Below, one piece after another: positions 15,967-57,783 of a DNA stretch of 64,000 nt. The DNA lies in contig CP047880.1 of the NCBI GenBank assembly GCA_009911715.1, positions 620,001-684,000 on the forward strand, in the 5' to 3' direction. How positions within the stretch are numbered: the stretch's first letter is position 1; each line of letters starts with the position of its first letter. Under the pieces are notes generated by a model, which saw only the letters and a program-made list of their open reading frames with translations, did no database searches and had not been told where the DNA came from. The DNA comes from Methanomassiliicoccaceae archaeon DOK (GTDB lineage Archaea; Thermoplasmatota; Thermoplasmata; Methanomassiliicoccales; Methanomethylophilaceae). Both the position numbers and the translations under genes were made by a program.

Positions 15967-16053
15967 GGTAAAGGGGAATGTAACGACGTTAAATATACTT
16001 GACGCAAGCATCCGCACATCTTGTTTATCAAACATCATCGGATACGCCGTGCC

Positions 16054-17976
16054 ATGAGGCCCTTCCACGCCGCGATCGTCGTCATAGCAGCGGTACTCCT
16101 GGTCGCAGCCGGTGCGACGTATCTTCTCACGCAGGACGACGGGTGGTCCATAACATATGAGACCGACGGCGGGACGTTGCCCGACGGGGCGCCCTTCTCG
16201 TATCACGAGGGTGACTCGTTCCCGCTGCCTGTTCCGGAGAGGGACGGGTACGTGTTCATGGGCTGGAGCACCTCTCAGGGCTCTTCGGACACGATGGAGA
16301 CCGTGGAGGGGCTGTCCGGGGACATCGTCCTGTACGCCTCCTGGATCGAGGCCGTCGAGCACAGCATAGAGTACGTCCTCGACGGGGGGACGCTGCCGGA
16401 GGGGAGCGTCCGCACGTTCATAGGCGGGGTCGGGGCGGTGCTTCCAATACCCGAGAGGGATGGCATGGTCTTCGCAGGATGGTTCGAGGATCCGGAGTTC
16501 ACGACCCCCGTCGTCGTCCTGGGGAGGGATGTCCTGGAGGACGTCACGGTCTACGCCTGCTGGGACGAGGAGGTCCCGACAGGGACGGGATACGTCTGGG
16601 ATGTCTCCGGCGAGTACTACAATGGGGACATCCGTCACACCGTGGAGGGCACGGTCCGGGAGGAGGTCCTGGCCGAGAGGGACGGGGCATACTACATCCA
16701 GACGACGTCCGACCTAACATACACATGGCCGACCGGATCGACTACGGACGACAGCGTCAGGGGACGCTGGAGCGACGGTGCCGGCGAGAACCTGACGTAC
16801 GTCGGCATCGGGGAGGCCGGAGGATACACCTGCACCGTCTGGGAGTCCGAGGACGGCACCTGCTACTGGCTGTACCACCTCACGCTGCAGGTCCGCGCCG
16901 AGGTCGACGACGGCACGACGCACATTGTCCACCAGCTGGCGGAGGTGTACACCTTCGAGCCCGAGACGTCATTCATCCCGGACGTCTCCGCCGAGTATCC
17001 GCTGCAGGTCCGCGGCGCCGGGACGGTGTCGATAGGGGACAGGCTGGAGCTGACCGCGGTCGGCGAAGGGTTCACCGGGTGGTACTCCGGCGGCGAACTG
17101 GTCACGACCGAGAGGACCCTCGTCGTGGACAGGGTCGATCCCACATGCAGCTACGAGGCCAGGTCCTCCGACGGCTACACCGTCCTGGACCAGGCCGAGG
17201 TGGGACTCGGGGACCTGGGATTCGCCGAGGGATCCGTCATCACCGACTGGGATGGGAACGTCGTGACGGGATACGGGTCGCTGGAGCCGGGATACTACGT
17301 CGTCACCGACGCCACGGGAGACGTCACCAGGTACCTGGAGTTCTTCATCGAGGATGCCAGGGTGTTCGAGCACACATGGACATTCGGAGGCGTCACGTAC
17401 ACCATACGGCTGGACATTCTGTACAGCGACGTCTTCGGGTACACGTACTCCGACCCCTACGGCAACATCCGCCTGTCGCTGACAGATCCAGCCTACGTGT
17501 CGAACTACCACACCGCCGACGACGGGACCCTTCTCGAACTGATGAGGGTGCTCTCCGCCTACGGCTCCGGCATGGACCGCACGGAGTTCGCCAGGTTCGT
17601 CCTGTCCTTCGTGCAGACGATACCGTACATGACGGACGAGGACTCCGTCGGGGAGAGGGAGTACTGGAAGTACCCCCTGGAGACGCTCTGGGACGGTGGA
17701 GGAGACTGCGAGGACTCGACCATCCTCTACGACACGCTGATGCTCATGGCAGGATACGACGTCGCTTTCGTGCTCTTCCAGGACCATGCGATGTCCGCCG
17801 TGTCTGTGGATGTCGACGGCCACTCCCTGACCAGGGACGGGATAGTCTACGTGTTCTGCGAGACGACGACCGTGTCCGAGATCGGGCTGACCTCGAAGGG
17901 CCACACGGAGGACGATGTCTACTACTGGTGCCCGGTGGTCGTGGGCTCCGGGACGGACACCGATAAGAATCCGTGA
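16054..17976 (+). CDS. Surface protein with InlB B-repeats and a transglutaminase-like domain
   Basis: A 640-residue membrane-anchored, extracellular protein. A signal anchor is at residues 4-27. Two Listeria-Bacteroides (InlB B) repeats follow (about 36-98 and 106-175), each with DGGTLP near the start, GY/MVFMGW in the middle and a final LYASW/VYACW. A C-terminal transglutaminase-like cysteine-protease fold has Cys552 in GGGDCEDS, His578 in DHAMSAV and an acidic residue near 603 (FCETTT). It may cleave or cross-link proteins at the cell surface, or only bind them. Two related proteins occur at 19738 and 56569. Confidence 0.75.
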   Translation: MRPFHAAIVVIAAVLLVAAGATYLLTQDDGWSITYETDGGTLPDGAPFSYHEGDSFPLPVPERDGYVFMGWSTSQGSSDTMETVEGLSGDIVLYASWIEAVEHSIEYVLDGGTLPEGSVRTFIGGVGAVLPIPERDGMVFAGWFEDPEFTTPVVVLGRDVLEDVTVYACWDEEVPTGTGYVWDVSGEYYNGDIRHTVEGTVREEVLAERDGAYYIQTTSDLTYTWPTGSTTDDSVRGRWSDGAGENLTYVGIGEAGGYTCTVWESEDGTCYWLYHLTLQVRAEVDDGTTHIVHQLAEVYTFEPETSFIPDVSAEYPLQVRGAGTVSIGDRLELTAVGEGFTGWYSGGELVTTERTLVVDRVDPTCSYEARSSDGYTVLDQAEVGLGDLGFAEGSVITDWDGNVVTGYGSLEPGYYVVTDATGDVTRYLEFFIEDARVFEHTWTFGGVTYTIRLDILYSDVFGYTYSDPYGNIRLSLTDPAYVSNYHTADDGTLLELMRVLSAYGSGMDRTEFARFVLSFVQTIPYMTDEDSVGEREYWKYPLETLWDGGGDCEDSTILYDTLMLMAGYDVAFVLFQDHAMSAVSVDVDGHSLTRDGIVYVFCETTTVSEIGLTSKGHTEDDVYYWCPVVVGSGTDTDKNP

Positions 17977-19737: not shown

Positions 19738-20988
19738 TTAGGGGAGTGCGATCCCGCTTCCCTCGCCAGCTGCCTGCCCGTAGTACGTGAAGCGTCCTCC
19801 CGAGTACCCGTACGACCCGTCGACGCAGCCGAGGGGGACGTTACCCTCATCCACCTCCGTGATGCAGTAGGATGTCCCGTTCTGGCTTACCCTCAGCTGA
19901 TGGTAGTCTTCCGGGACGGACGAGGGTCCGGTGTAGCTGTCAAGGGACACTGCGACGAACCCGTGGCCGTTCACAACCGCGATCCCGGCGTCGTATCCGG
20001 ATGCGATGAGGATCGATGCCGCGAGGACGGCAAGGTCGCCGGAGTCCCCGACCGAGGTGTAGAGGGTCTCGGCGGGGAAGGCCCAGTATGTGGATGTGGA
20101 GTGGTAGTACGTGTCGGAGCCGACGGTGAAGCAGCTCTGGACGAAGTCAAGGATGTAGTCCGCGTACTCCTGGCCGGATGTCGATGCGCCGGGGTTGCGG
20201 GAGAGGTAGGCGTTCCTGAGCCTCTCGGAGAGGAGCTCCACCGATCCGTCGGTGTTGATGAACGAGGCTCCGCTCTCCGCGGTCGGGCTGTGCCTCCTGT
20301 CGTCGGGGACCCCGTCGGCGTTGATGCACCCCAGGAACTCGTCCAGGGAGACGTCGACGTAGACGGAGTACGATTCGCCGTCGTGGACGAAGCTGTACTG
20401 TACATGGCTGTTGCCCAGGTAGTCCATCACACCCACGTACACGGCCTCCGAGCCGTCATCCGCGATGCAGTGTACCGTCACGGTGTACCTGCCGAGGTCC
20501 GGGCTGACCCAGGTGAGGTCCGCGGTGTCCTTCGTGATCGCCTGCGAGGTGTTGGAGTATTCGTCGCGAAGGATCCATGTGAACGTGGAGAACCCTTCGG
20601 AGGCGCCGTCGGAGAGCCATATCGACAGCTGACCCGACGAGTCCAGGCGGGCGGACATGTCGCCGTCATCGAAGGCCCTGCTGAGCTCGATGAACGAGGT
20701 GTCCGATACGATTATGGCGCCGTCGGAGGGCTCCCCGTAGCCGGGGGTGTCGACGGAGCCCTGATCGTCCGCGGGGGTGCCGAGGGCCAGGAGGACGGAG
20801 ATCACAGCCACGATGACGACGGTGATGACCGCCGCCGAGGCGAGGTGCCTGAAGCGCATGTCGTCCTGTACATCCATGAGGATGAACCTGAGCTTGCGCT
20901 TGTGCCTCCTGCCCTCCAGGTTGTGTCCGCAGTGTGGGCAGAACGGGACGTCGTCGGTGACGTCCTCGCCGCAGTTCGGACATTTCAT
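19738..20988 (-). CDS. Zinc-ribbon membrane protein with a degenerate transglutaminase-like domain
   Basis: A 416-residue protein. The N-terminal zinc ribbon is MKCPNCGEDV...FCPHCGH (Cys 3, 6, 17, 20), the membrane segment spans about 49-70, and a long outer region ends in a transglutaminase-like domain. Where its two relatives have GGGDCED, it reads SVGDSGD, so Ser316 replaces the catalytic Cys; His in GHGFVAV is kept. It is therefore probably not a normal transglutaminase or protease and may be a binding or sensing module. It follows the membrane-tethered regulator by 8 nt in one operon. It ends in TAA. Confidence 0.7.
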   Translation of the reverse strand: MKCPNCGEDVTDDVPFCPHCGHNLEGRRHKRKLRFILMDVQDDMRFRHLASAAVITVVIVAVISVLLALGTPADDQGSVDTPGYGEPSDGAIIVSDTSFIELSRAFDDGDMSARLDSSGQLSIWLSDGASEGFSTFTWILRDEYSNTSQAITKDTADLTWVSPDLGRYTVTVHCIADDGSEAVYVGVMDYLGNSHVQYSFVHDGESYSVYVDVSLDEFLGCINADGVPDDRRHSPTAESGASFINTDGSVELLSERLRNAYLSRNPGASTSGQEYADYILDFVQSCFTVGSDTYYHSTSTYWAFPAETLYTSVGDSGDLAVLAASILIASGYDAGIAVVNGHGFVAVSLDSYTGPSSVPEDYHQLRVSQNGTSYCITEVDEGNVPLGCVDGSYGYSGGRFTYYGQAAGEGSGIALP

Positions 20989-20996
20989 GGTATCCG

Positions 20997-23498
20997 TCAG
21001 TAGATCCCGACGTGCCTGTAGCTGATGACCACGTCCTCGTCTCCGATGTCGAACGTGACCGAACGGTCCATGGGCTGGAGCACGAGGCTCGTCTCCTGTC
21101 CGCCGAGTGTGACCATGCTGATGCTGACGGGTCCGTTGGTGCTGACGAACCTGAGGGACACGGTGCTGTCCTCCGTGACTCTCAGGACACCTGTGGCGAA
21201 CCAGCCGTCCGCCTCGAAGCCTCCCTCCAGGTGGACGTTCACGTAGTCGCGCGGCAGGTCCGCGGAGCTGAGGTCGGTGACCTCGTCGACGCCGCAGACG
21301 ATCCTGTCGAAGAGGAACTCCTGCGATCCCGTGTCGATGTACATGCCGTCGGACGCGGTCACGGACACGACGGTCCCGGCCGTGACCCAGAGCCCGCCGA
21401 CAACCTCTGCGTACTGGTCCGCGGGGATGTAGCCGTTGAAGGAGTACGCGTAGGAGTCGGAGACGGAGGATCCGAAGGTGTACAGGGAGTAGCTGAGGTT
21501 CTCGTCGTCGGGCAGGTCCAGCAGGGTGATCGGCTGGAAGGTGATGTTCTCGTCGATCGTCATGGTGAAGGTGCCGTCCTCCTCGGAGAGGTACATGTCC
21601 AGCGGATAGGCCATGCCGTTGTCGACTACGCCTATGTCGAACGGTTCCCCGGTGAACGTCATCGTGAACTCGACGGTCTGCTGACGGTCCACGACCAGAG
21701 GCATCTGGATCTCGTCGCCGGTCTCGTCGTAGAAGAGCACGCCGTCGCATCCCTCCGCGAGGTTGACGGTCAGCTGGTCGGCGTAGGTGTCCTGGTTGTC
21801 CCCTCCGGAGAATCCGAAGACCAGGATCGCGGCGAAGAATGCGACCATCACGAATCCCGTGATGTATCTGACTGTCCTGGTGGGCCTGTTGCCCTCCTTC
21901 ACGCTGCGGTTGAGCAGCGCGGTCTTGACGGAGGACGTCCTCTTCTTCTTGGACTTGGATGTCGATGCGTCGGGCAGTCCCTCGACTGCGACCCCTTCCA
22001 TGGGGGTCATGCTGAGCGCGGGGTAGATCTCCTTGAACGAGACCTTCCTGTCCGCGGGAGTGTCCTCGGACACCCTGACGAAGATTCCGTTGCTGGCCAT
22101 CTCCAGTCCCTGGTGGGCCATGCCCTTGACGAAGGTCATGGCCGGGGACATCTCCGACTCGGGGTCGTCGCTGGTGATTCCGATGGTCAGCGGGTAGATG
22201 GACACGACGTTGAGCGAGAGGCCGATCGCCTTGGCGATGTCGGACATCTTGCCGAAGAACACGTCGAAGTTGCGCGGGCCGTCGTTGCCCGCTACCCTCA
22301 TGTACTTGGCCCCAAGGACGACCATCATGTAGTCGGTGTCGAAGCCCAGTCCCTTGAGGGACGAGAGCAGGTACAGGAGGTACCCCTCCATGAACGCGTT
22401 CTCCTTGGACCTGACCCCGGACATTATGTCGTGGATCTCGGAGGAGTCCCTGTTTATCGGGCGGGACTTCTTCATGAGGATGGAGCACGACATGCCGTAG
22501 TAGGCCGTGCCGGACTCGGAGTAGAACACGGTGATGACGCCGTCCTCGACCATCCTCAGGATGTTGGAGGTCACGGTGGACCTGGGCGCCTCCACCTTGT
22601 TGACGATGTCCGTGATGCACAGCGGCCTCTCGTAGACCGCATCGACGATGTCGATCTGGACGGGGCTGGTGATGAGTCCCACGGATCCGTCGAGGTCGAC
22701 CATGAGGAACCTGTCGACCTCCGCCGACTGGTGCAGTGACATGTTGATGTAGGGTTCGGGCCTCTTGTCGACCCTGTCGTACACGACCTTGAACCTGGAC
22801 GTCTCGCCCGACGAGAACTCCTCGGTGGAGCTGACGGCGTAGGTCTTGCCCGTCGCGTTCTCCACCGCGCGGCAGACGAACTCGGTGAGCATGTCCATCT
22901 TGGACGACATCACCCTGTCGCCCTCGAACACGAGGGTGAGGGGGTTCAGCGCGAAGATGCTGAACTTGAACCCGGTGATCCTGGCGAATGACTCCTTGAT
23001 CTTCAGGATGGAGTCCTCCAGGCTGCCGGCGCCTATGTCGATCTTCAGGGAGTCCGCGAGCTCGCGGGCGTACTTCGCGCGGAGCTGGTCCAGGCTGAGC
23101 CCTATCTCGGCGGCGTAGCAGTCCAGCATGTTCGCGACCGACGACATCCCGCTGTAGTAGCGGGACGGGTCCGTGAACGTCTCCCGGCACTGCTCCTCGG
23201 CGCCCTCGTCGGGCTGCTTCGAGCCCGCGATCTTCAGCGCGAGGTTGGAGTAATAGACCGATTTCTTGTCGGCGTCCGGCTTGAATCTGATGATGACGCC
23301 CGACTCGGTCATCTTGTCGAGAACGAAATGCAGGGAAGACGAGGGTATTCCCAGGGAGGCCGCGATGTCGCTGGGCCTCTTGCTTCCGCTGCAAAGCTCG
23401 TTGTAAACGGAGATCTGCAATGGATCAGTGAGGGGGACCACGCCCTTCTCGGTGAGCAGCACCGTGAAGTTGCGCAGATACTCATCTTGATTGCCCAT
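20997..23498 (-). CDS. Membrane-tethered double winged-helix regulator with an outer domain
   Basis: An 833-residue protein with an unusual duplicated plan. The first winged helix (about 25-85: RPSDIAASLGIPSSSLHFVLDK) is followed by an alpha/beta domain (110-215). A second winged helix (275-335: CITDIVNKVEAPRSTVTSNIL) is followed by a related alpha/beta domain (355-475; IGLSLNVVSIYPLTIGI echoes ITGFKFSIFALNPLTLVF). Then come a basic linker, one membrane segment (545-564) and about 265 outer beta-rich residues. DNA-binding domains inside and a sensor outside suggest direct surface-to-gene signalling. A TATA box (about 23525) and ATG at 23498 fit better than the upstream TTG. Confidence 0.72.
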   Translation of the reverse strand: MGNQDEYLRNFTVLLTEKGVVPLTDPLQISVYNELCSGSKRPSDIAASLGIPSSSLHFVLDKMTESGVIIRFKPDADKKSVYYSNLALKIAGSKQPDEGAEEQCRETFTDPSRYYSGMSSVANMLDCYAAEIGLSLDQLRAKYARELADSLKIDIGAGSLEDSILKIKESFARITGFKFSIFALNPLTLVFEGDRVMSSKMDMLTEFVCRAVENATGKTYAVSSTEEFSSGETSRFKVVYDRVDKRPEPYINMSLHQSAEVDRFLMVDLDGSVGLITSPVQIDIVDAVYERPLCITDIVNKVEAPRSTVTSNILRMVEDGVITVFYSESGTAYYGMSCSILMKKSRPINRDSSEIHDIMSGVRSKENAFMEGYLLYLLSSLKGLGFDTDYMMVVLGAKYMRVAGNDGPRNFDVFFGKMSDIAKAIGLSLNVVSIYPLTIGITSDDPESEMSPAMTFVKGMAHQGLEMASNGIFVRVSEDTPADRKVSFKEIYPALSMTPMEGVAVEGLPDASTSKSKKKRTSSVKTALLNRSVKEGNRPTRTVRYITGFVMVAFFAAILVFGFSGGDNQDTYADQLTVNLAEGCDGVLFYDETGDEIQMPLVVDRQQTVEFTMTFTGEPFDIGVVDNGMAYPLDMYLSEEDGTFTMTIDENITFQPITLLDLPDDENLSYSLYTFGSSVSDSYAYSFNGYIPADQYAEVVGGLWVTAGTVVSVTASDGMYIDTGSQEFLFDRIVCGVDEVTDLSSADLPRDYVNVHLEGGFEADGWFATGVLRVTEDSTVSLRFVSTNGPVSISMVTLGGQETSLVLQPMDRSVTFDIGDEDVVISYRHVGIY

Positions 23499-23567
23499 AC
23501 CGTCCAAATCGGCTTGTCTGATATTATAATTAACGAGGGATGCTCGGAGGATGTGTAACCTCCGGCA

Positions 23568-56568: not shown

Positions 56569-57783
56569 TCATGCCACCAGGTACAGTCCGTCCGAAGGAT
56601 TCGCGCCTCCGCCCTGGTACAGGAATTCGCCGTCGGAGGTTATGGTGTAGTCGCGGGAGACCATTCCTGCGGGGAACGGGACGTCGACGGTGGTCTCGCA
56701 TCCGTAGTAGACGGTGCCGTCGAGCTCGTAGCTGTACGTGTGGTAGTGCGTCGCCAGTTCCCACAGGGTGTTCTCCTCGTAGTCGTCCAGAGCGATCGCG
56801 GCCAACGCGTGGCCGGGCACCATGAACACCCCCGCGTCGTATCCGGCGGCATCGAAGAGGGCGGCGCACAGGAACGAGGTGTCCTCGCAGTCGCCGCCTC
56901 CGTTGTACAGCGTCTCCATCGGGAACGCCCAGTATTCCGCGCGGCCGTAAAGGTCGGAGTCGTTGAGGTACTCGAAGCACACCTGCACGAACCCCAGTAT
57001 GAAGTCTGCGTACTCCTGACCGTCCACGGGCGCATCCTGGCCGAAGGCTCCGAGGTAGGCGGACCTGAGCTGCTCCTCGAGCGATGCGATGGTCGGGTCG
57101 GCCGCCGTGAGGATGGACACTCTCTGCCCGAAGTCCCCGTAGGTCTTCAGGTAGTAGTCGTCGTTCAGTCTGCAGGCCTCGTAGTCGGCGTAGTCGTAGG
57201 AGACGGCGACGGAGAGGTCCTGCGCCATGTACGTCCACTCGAACGTGTCCGTCAGGGTGCCGTAGAGAATCAGGCTTCCGCTGCGCGAGCTGTACGGACC
57301 GTTCAGGTTGTCCGAGCTCCCCACGGACATCGCGTACATGCCCGGGGTGAGGTCGTCCTTGGGTATCTCAAGATACGGTTCCTGGGTGATCCGGCGGTAC
57401 TCGTCGCCGTAGCGGTCGGTCAGGGACCACAGGAAGTGGGTCTCCTCGTTGGAGACGTCCACGAGCACGAACTTCACGGAGTCGCCGAGGTCCCCGACAG
57501 CGATGAACGAGCCGTCGGCGATGTCGCCCGACACGACCACATCCCCGCTGACAACGACCCTTACCACGCTGTCGTCCTCATCGTCGCCGATGAGGCTTGA
57601 CGCTGCGAACAGGACCGCCAGTGCCAGCACGGAGAAGACGATCACGGCGGTGACGGTCCTGCGGCTCATGCCTGGGCCGGTGTTGCGGGCTGGCGGCACC
57701 GCGGACGGGTCCACCGGGAAGCCGCACGACGGGCAGAACGACTGATGCTCTTCGAGCTCGTGGCCGCAGTTCCTGCAGAACAT
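56569..57783 (-). CDS. Zinc-ribbon membrane protein with a transglutaminase-like domain
   Basis: A 404-residue protein. The N-terminal zinc ribbon is MFCRNCGHEL...FCPSCGF (Cys 3, 6, 17, 20), then a proline-rich linker, a membrane helix (about 42-64) and an outer region. The C-terminal transglutaminase-like fold has Cys299 in GGGDCEDT, His in PGHALAAI and an acidic third residue near CETTVD. It is the intact-site relative of the protein at 19738 and resembles the C-terminus of the InlB-repeat protein at 16054. A minus-strand TATA (GTTATATACG) lies about 27 nt before the ATG. Confidence 0.75.
   Translation of the reverse strand: MFCRNCGHELEEHQSFCPSCGFPVDPSAVPPARNTGPGMSRRTVTAVIVFSVLALAVLFAASSLIGDDEDDSVVRVVVSGDVVVSGDIADGSFIAVGDLGDSVKFVLVDVSNEETHFLWSLTDRYGDEYRRITQEPYLEIPKDDLTPGMYAMSVGSSDNLNGPYSSRSGSLILYGTLTDTFEWTYMAQDLSVAVSYDYADYEACRLNDDYYLKTYGDFGQRVSILTAADPTIASLEEQLRSAYLGAFGQDAPVDGQEYADFILGFVQVCFEYLNDSDLYGRAEYWAFPMETLYNGGGDCEDTSFLCAALFDAAGYDAGVFMVPGHALAAIALDDYEENTLWELATHYHTYSYELDGTVYYGCETTVDVPFPAGMVSRDYTITSDGEFLYQGGGANPSDGLYLVA

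Follow-up and report, generated by a model that had tools for sequence, protein, structure and literature searches.

What does a DNA-binding protein do when it is anchored in the membrane of a gut archaeon, with folded domains outside the cell and a dead enzyme encoded beside it? The question is raised by two neighbouring genes of Methanomassiliicoccaceae archaeon DOK. These genes lie in a window of 64,000 nucleotides (nt; contig CP047880.1, positions 620,001 to 684,000), which is the whole stretch of DNA that was analysed. The first gene encodes a regulator from a family known as soluble, which here has a membrane anchor and outer domains, and the second (the partner) encodes a membrane protein with a transglutaminase-like (TGL) fold that has lost its catalytic residues. 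The two genes are 8 nt apart, as had been correctly placed by the original prediction, which was made from the letters of the window without database searches. In a survey of 102 Methanomethylophilaceae genomes, full-length regulators were found in 21 genomes, all of one genus, and the partner adjoined the regulator on the same strand in 21/21; conserved pairing was one of the checks that the prediction had named. On balance, and by a modest preference, the pair is best explained as a transmembrane one-component regulator with a co-encoded membrane co-sensor, a pseudo-transglutaminase, in an arrangement like that of ToxR/ToxS.

The regulator and its relation to MsvR

The open reading frame (ORF) of the regulator runs from an ATG at 23498 to a stop at 20997 on the minus strand, and encodes 833 amino acids (aa). 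In the AlphaFold model (21-row alignment; mean predicted local distance difference test score, pLDDT, of 78), the order of the chain was winged helix, alpha/beta domain, winged helix, alpha/beta domain, disordered linker, membrane helix and beta-rich outer region. The features were placed as follows.

20997..23498, minus strand: regulator gene, tandem MsvR-type units with membrane helix and outer domains (ORF, Pfam, AlphaFold, profile comparison)
23223..23441, minus strand: winged helix 1, aa 20-92 (Pfam HTH_24/MarR; median identity 68% over 20 orthologues)
22770..23201, minus strand: V4R-type alpha/beta domain 1, aa 100-243 (hhalign to the alpha/beta part of an MsvR-like paralogue; H-NOX Foldseek matches of the whole model)
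22467..22694, minus strand: winged helix 2, aa 269-344 (Pfam ArsR; NCBIfam MsvR match at 273-397; median identity 78%)
22089..22442, minus strand: V4R-type alpha/beta domain 2, divergent, aa 353-470 (secondary-structure order; profile comparison of unit 2)
21903..21947, minus strand: juxtamembrane motif KKRTSSVKTALLNRS, aa 518-532 (near-invariant, within the predicted disordered linker)
21801..21863, minus strand: membrane helix, aa 546-566 (hydropathy and flanking charges in 21 orthologues)
21000..21776, minus strand: beta-rich outer region, fast evolving, aa 575-833 (AlphaFold model, identity across orthologues)

Both winged helices matched Pfam families (HTH_24, ArsR, MarR) above cut-off and were found in 21/21 orthologues. 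The single hydrophobic helix (about residues 546-566) was preceded by a net charge of +3 to +5 and followed by one of -2 to -4 in all 21 orthologues, and these uniform flanking charges predict a topology with the N-terminus inside and the C-terminus outside. The outer region of about 265 residues gave a confident beta-rich model. A membrane-tethered double winged-helix regulator with an outer domain had been proposed from the sequence, with structure prediction named as a check, and the Pfam matches, the model and the conserved helix all bear the proposal out. Neither of the two outcomes named beforehand as fatal to it (homologues nowhere adjacent; models lacking a winged helix or an outer domain) came about. 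Having a DNA-binding domain and a predicted transmembrane region in one chain, the protein falls within the definition of transmembrane transcription regulators used in PMC10269533. The motif KKRTSSVKTALLNRS, near-invariant in all 21 regulators, was located just inside the membrane, with about 80 disordered residues around it.

The alpha/beta domains were modelled as helices, a beta pair, a helix and a second beta pair (pLDDT mostly 80-95 in unit 1), and the secondary-structure order of domain 2 matched that of domain 1 through the first beta pair and the following helix. Units 1 and 2, each a winged helix with its alpha/beta domain, were related by hhalign (91%, E 1e-6). The original prediction was therefore right that the alpha/beta domains are related, and had missed their MsvR/V4R identity. 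The MsvR model was the top NCBIfam match of the regulator, with 38 bits against an equivalog cut-off of 220 bits; it matched 21/21 orthologues and, in the genome scan, each half of the regulator separately. A soluble single-unit protein of the same genome (G000:C1:254549-255277) matched MsvR from end to end with 123 bits, again under the equivalog cut-off. All 16 members of a single-unit MsvR-like family, A3, matched MsvR, and 2/16 matched Pfam V4R (best 3e-7). Unit 1 aligned over its full length with family A3 in profile comparison (E 1.1e-24), and its alpha/beta part alone aligned in hhalign with that of the MsvR-like paralogue (98.9%, E 1e-17). Unit 2 aligned with the A3 paralogue at 96.3% (E 1.6e-9), its alpha/beta part alone being diverged and weakly matched. 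As a control, the outer domain of the regulator did not align with family A3 in the profile comparison. No direct Pfam V4R match was present among the matches listed for the 21 orthologues, and the V4R assignment therefore runs through family A3. Foldseek with the whole model returned MarR/ArsR winged helices and H-NOX, the latter with a target TM score of 0.40-0.48 and weak E values of about 0.05-0.07; we take the H-NOX fold to group with V4R and TRAPP, and the modelled sequence of helices and strands is compatible with this group. On this evidence, V4R domains of the MsvR type are the best reading of both alpha/beta domains, and the regulator is accordingly taken as a tandem MsvR (winged helix plus V4R, twice) with a membrane anchor and outer domains.

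In MsvR, a redox regulator of methanogens, V4R is the sensory part and carries redox cysteines (PMC3729527). The three conserved redox cysteines of MsvR had no counterpart here, as neither alpha/beta domain held an invariant cysteine across the 21 orthologues; the only invariant cysteines were 294 and 338, in or beside winged helix 2. Redox sensing by that route is therefore unlikely, and the V4R domains may have turned to dimerisation or to receiving a second input from the cytosol. Single-unit MsvR-like proteins elsewhere in the order (L171, L172; family f5) keep a cysteine pair near the end of V4R (SECFG...C.F), which the A3 members of Methanomethylophilaceae have lost; a family-wide loss of MsvR redox sensing is possible.

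The partner and the loss of its catalytic residues

The partner ORF extends from an ATG at 20988 to a stop at 19738 on the minus strand. Its AlphaFold model (mean pLDDT 84) showed a zinc ribbon, a membrane helix, a beta sandwich of immunoglobulin/fibronectin type III (Ig/FnIII) kind and a TGL fold.

19738..20988, minus strand: partner gene, 416 aa (ORF, Pfam, AlphaFold, Foldseek)
20914..20988, minus strand: cytosolic zinc ribbon, CxxC...CxxC (Pfam above cut-off; invariant in 21 orthologues)
20782..20850, minus strand: membrane helix (hydropathy, flanking charges, AlphaFold model)
20413..20715, minus strand: Ig/FnIII-like beta sandwich, aa 92-192 (AlphaFold model, Foldseek FnIII matches)
19741..20406, minus strand: transglutaminase-like fold without catalytic residues, aa 195-416 (AlphaFold, Foldseek, homologue alignment)
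20041..20043, minus strand: codon of Ser316 at the catalytic cysteine position (homologue alignment)

All four zinc ligands were invariant in the 21 orthologues. The predicted topology is again N-terminus inside and C-terminus outside, with a charge pattern weaker than that of the regulator but consistent with it. The model matched transglutaminase 2 (E 5e-4), the putative protease 3kd4 and LapG in Foldseek, which identifies a TGL fold; Pfam Transglut_core matched 14/21 orthologues, with E values up to 0.1.

The catalytic cysteine position is a serine in the partner (GDSGD) and is S, D, Q, T or E across the orthologues. The cysteine was kept in none of the 21 partners and the histidine in five, whereas both were kept in 65 of the 66 alignable homologues outside the pair locus, the sole exception (in G019) being one of a tandem whose other copy is intact. 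The 21 partners group as a single clade (Shimodaira-Hasegawa-like approximate likelihood ratio test, SH-aLRT, 86), and the cysteine was therefore probably lost in a single event. A working serine enzyme was rejected, since orthologues have D, Q, T or E at this position and most of them are without the histidine. The ratio of nonsynonymous to synonymous change (dN/dS) was about 0.09-0.42 in the usable comparisons, which indicates purifying selection and rules out a pseudogene. The TGL domain of the partner is a retained and presumably binding fold. A change from cysteine to serine had been predicted; the serine is there and the domain is dead, but what is conserved is the loss of catalytic residues and not the swap.

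The plan of zinc ribbon, membrane helix and TGL domain is common among Methanomethylophilaceae surface proteins. It recurs in the window in a paralogue with an intact GDCED/histidine site (56569-57783, minus strand). The proposal that the zinc ribbon of the partner binds nucleic acid found no support, as the same ribbon is found on catalytically intact paralogues. Two tandem TGL surface genes were observed in G019 (C223, 3627-6497; L177), an inactive GDSED copy beside an active GDCED copy, which is apparently an independent inactivation with no tandem MsvR-type regulator nearby. On the plus strand of the window, 16021-17976 encodes a protein that looks secreted and combines Listeria-Bacteroides repeats with an intact TGL domain, which is weakly similar to LapG (NCBIfam CystProtLapG, E 1.5e-5, below cut-off). 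This gene was considered as a third member of the unit and was rejected, as it is present in some loci, absent from others and also found without the pair.

The locus across genomes and its promoter

The full-length regulators formed one clade (support 97/98), and the gap between the paired genes was mostly short (up to about 110 nt). The pair was intact in a genome with its upstream neighbour displaced by several kilobases (G050) and in another with its downstream neighbour so displaced (G052). At the same site, three genomes (G067, G056 and G069) had a short soluble tandem regulator and no partner; G070 had a regulator with the membrane helix and about half of the outer region, lacking the motif KKRTSSVKTALLNRS, and no partner; and G066 had neither gene. 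Pairing is thus tied to the complete outer region of the regulator, and sister species preserve intermediate, soluble and empty states of the locus. The surrounding block thiE - pair - pth2 - thiM was conserved across the genus, whether the pair was present or not.

A scan of 84,980 species genomes yielded 19 loci; the long form was present at 18 of them and a short form at the other. By their record titles all were archaeal except one bacterial, mostly Methanomethylophilaceae or Methanomassiliicoccales/Thermoplasmata metagenome-assembled genomes, some of them named for a ruminant source. An Eggerthellaceae-titled contig (L102, CALUHI010000010.1) carries the archaeal regulator at 99% identity and is probably mis-binned or mis-titled. 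The regulator genes of G056 and G069 (L071, L072) are open except for in-frame TAG codons; the two species share the positions of two of these codons, which suggests that TAG is read there as an amino acid (pyrrolysine). In G070 (L070, 5211-7634) the regulator has a truncated outer domain, beyond which its frame continues without a stop into the in-frame pth2; this is probably a frameshift or decay and not a real fusion.

Two conserved elements were located upstream of the regulator.

23519..23530, minus strand: TATA box about 30 nt upstream of the regulator ATG (conserved in the upstream regions of 23 genomes)
23538..23557, minus strand: upstream element TACACATCCTCCGAGCATCC, candidate regulatory site (core motif at a near-fixed position in 18/23 genomes)

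About 1.5 genomes with the core at that position were expected. Within the regulator promoter (23519-23560), the CACANNNTCCGAGC element is the candidate site. The TATA position suggests that the regulator has its own, leaderless promoter. Inspection by eye of the 110 nt preceding the regulator showed no MsvR operator (TTCG-N7-9-CGAA), and MsvR-like operators were at chance level across the window in a search with a 10-nt spacer only. A link to thiamine regulation is not claimed: although the pair follows thi genes, it carries a separate TATA box, and the block also occurs where the pair is missing. A regulon search with the upstream element returned few further sites. One near-copy (G000:C1:493113-493131, L249) lies upstream of a gene resembling a membrane pyrophosphatase, with a similar spacing to a T/A-rich box; it is unconfirmed in a second genome and marks a possible regulon member.

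Explanations of the pair and known systems

In the explanation that we favour, the tandem winged helices would act on DNA as a dimer in cis, as MsvR does as a homodimer, and the dead TGL fold of the partner would meet the outer domains of the regulator outside the membrane. Binding of an extracellular peptide, protein or glycan would change this outer complex, and the signal would cross by way of the membrane helix and the motif KKRTSSVKTALLNRS and change how the regulator binds DNA, much as ToxR works with ToxS. A surface transglutaminase that had degenerated might have become the extracellular co-receptor for a tandem MsvR anchored in the membrane, and the two proteins would form an archaeal unit that signals in one step from the outside to DNA; this fuller proposal is tentative, and we would not quite call it probable. 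If true, a signalling unit has been built from methanogen parts, and a redox regulator has been turned into a surface sensor.

The two genes have stayed together, with selection acting on both. Median identity dropped from 68-78% in the winged helices to 25-28% in the outer domains, which were fast evolving in both proteins. The outer-domain distances of regulator and partner correlated beyond the cytosolic background (partial r 0.33-0.57, in a permutation test that ignores shared ancestry), the value for the distal outer part of the regulator against the TGL domain being only 0.11. This is suggestive and not proof of contact. Several observations weigh against a physical unit. Shared ancestry, or a shared selection on surface proteins, could account for the correlated distances; in G064, G059 and G058 about 380-440 nt separate the two genes; G070 keeps the membrane helix and the first outer part although its locus has no partner; and all 21 pairs represent one conserved locus in one genus, so that few independent events are sampled.

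A link in expression only is the leading alternative, which we regard as unlikely but worth serious consideration. The membrane-anchored MsvR derivative would then control the expression of a dead TGL surface protein serving as a binding protein, adhesin or decoy. In its favour are the shared direction of the two genes, the mostly short distance between them, the conserved promoter in front of the first gene and the abundance of other surface TGL proteins in the family. It sits less well with the rate and distance pattern shared by the two outer domains, with the loss of catalysis throughout the paired clade while unpaired homologues kept it, and with the fact that no partner is present at this locus when the outer region of the regulator is incomplete or missing.

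Sensing could instead be cytosolic, with a ligand bound by V4R, the anchor only positioning the regulator and the outer domain being structural. The sensory role of V4R in MsvR (PMC3729527) speaks for this, as does the higher conservation of the V4R domains compared with the outer domains. Against it, the redox cysteines of MsvR have not been kept, the model shows long and well-folded outer domains, and a partner with a large outer domain is retained together with the outer region of the regulator; we consider this reading improbable. Regulated proteolysis seems more doubtful still. A partner-gated outer signal would lead to cleavage in the linker near KKRTSSVKTALLNRS, freeing the tandem MsvR into the cytosol. 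The disordered stretch with its almost invariant motif would suit such a cut, and soluble relatives with the same tandem plan occur in other genera, but docking or contact with lipids would explain the motif equally well. That the two genes are chance neighbours, for which the conservation of the block with or without them could be cited, is very improbable, given that the partner occurs only where the full-length regulator does and that the pair survives breaks on either side.

Among known systems, MsvR is the nearest to the regulator, each half of which is homologous to it, unit 1 over its full length and unit 2 more weakly. The regulator is derived from MsvR yet is not an MsvR: its chain holds two units and adds a membrane helix and outer domains, its V4R cysteines are not conserved, no MsvR operator was seen in its promoter, and it scores far under the equivalog cut-off of that single-unit soluble protein. 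The zinc ribbon-transmembrane-transglutaminase surface proteins of Methanomethylophilaceae share the architecture and fold of the partner, but outside the pair locus keep the cysteine and histidine (65 of 66 alignable) and, in the neighbourhoods examined, were not beside the tandem regulator. LapG, which was among the Foldseek matches of the partner model, is in bacterial adhesin control an active protease under the control of LapD, whereas the TGL fold here is inactive and stands beside a DNA-binding protein.

The DOK regulator differs from ArnR, which to our knowledge lacks V4R, tandem units, a large outer domain and a TGL partner. ArnR and ArnR1 of Sulfolobus are, like it, archaeal membrane-bound one-component transcription regulators (PMC6396743), and about four transmembrane transcription regulators are counted per archaeal genome (PMC10269533). 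The claim that no archaeal system of this plan had been described was overstated, as membrane-tethered regulators are known in archaea and common in genome surveys (PMC6396743, PMC10269533). What is new is the joining of a tandem MsvR to outer domains, with a pseudo-transglutaminase as its constant neighbour, in a plan restricted to a single genus of Methanomethylophilaceae; this combination was not found in the literature searched, whose coverage left out most subscription journals. Few of the transmembrane regulators counted in archaea are understood, and partners of the ToxS kind have been described mainly in bacteria. The locus makes surface or host sensing by one-step regulators testable in archaea, and its make-up suggests that an enzyme past its catalytic role now belongs to an environmental sensor.

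Regulators of the ToxR/TcpP type carry an OmpR-type winged helix. ToxR/ToxS and TcpP/TcpH (PMC7496328, PMC10269533) resemble the DOK pair in joining a membrane-tethered DNA-binding protein to an associated membrane partner. They differ from it in that the regulator here has MsvR-type winged helix and V4R units, and its partner combines a zinc ribbon with a transglutaminase fold that is dead; the likeness is one of plan, and no sequence homology is claimed.

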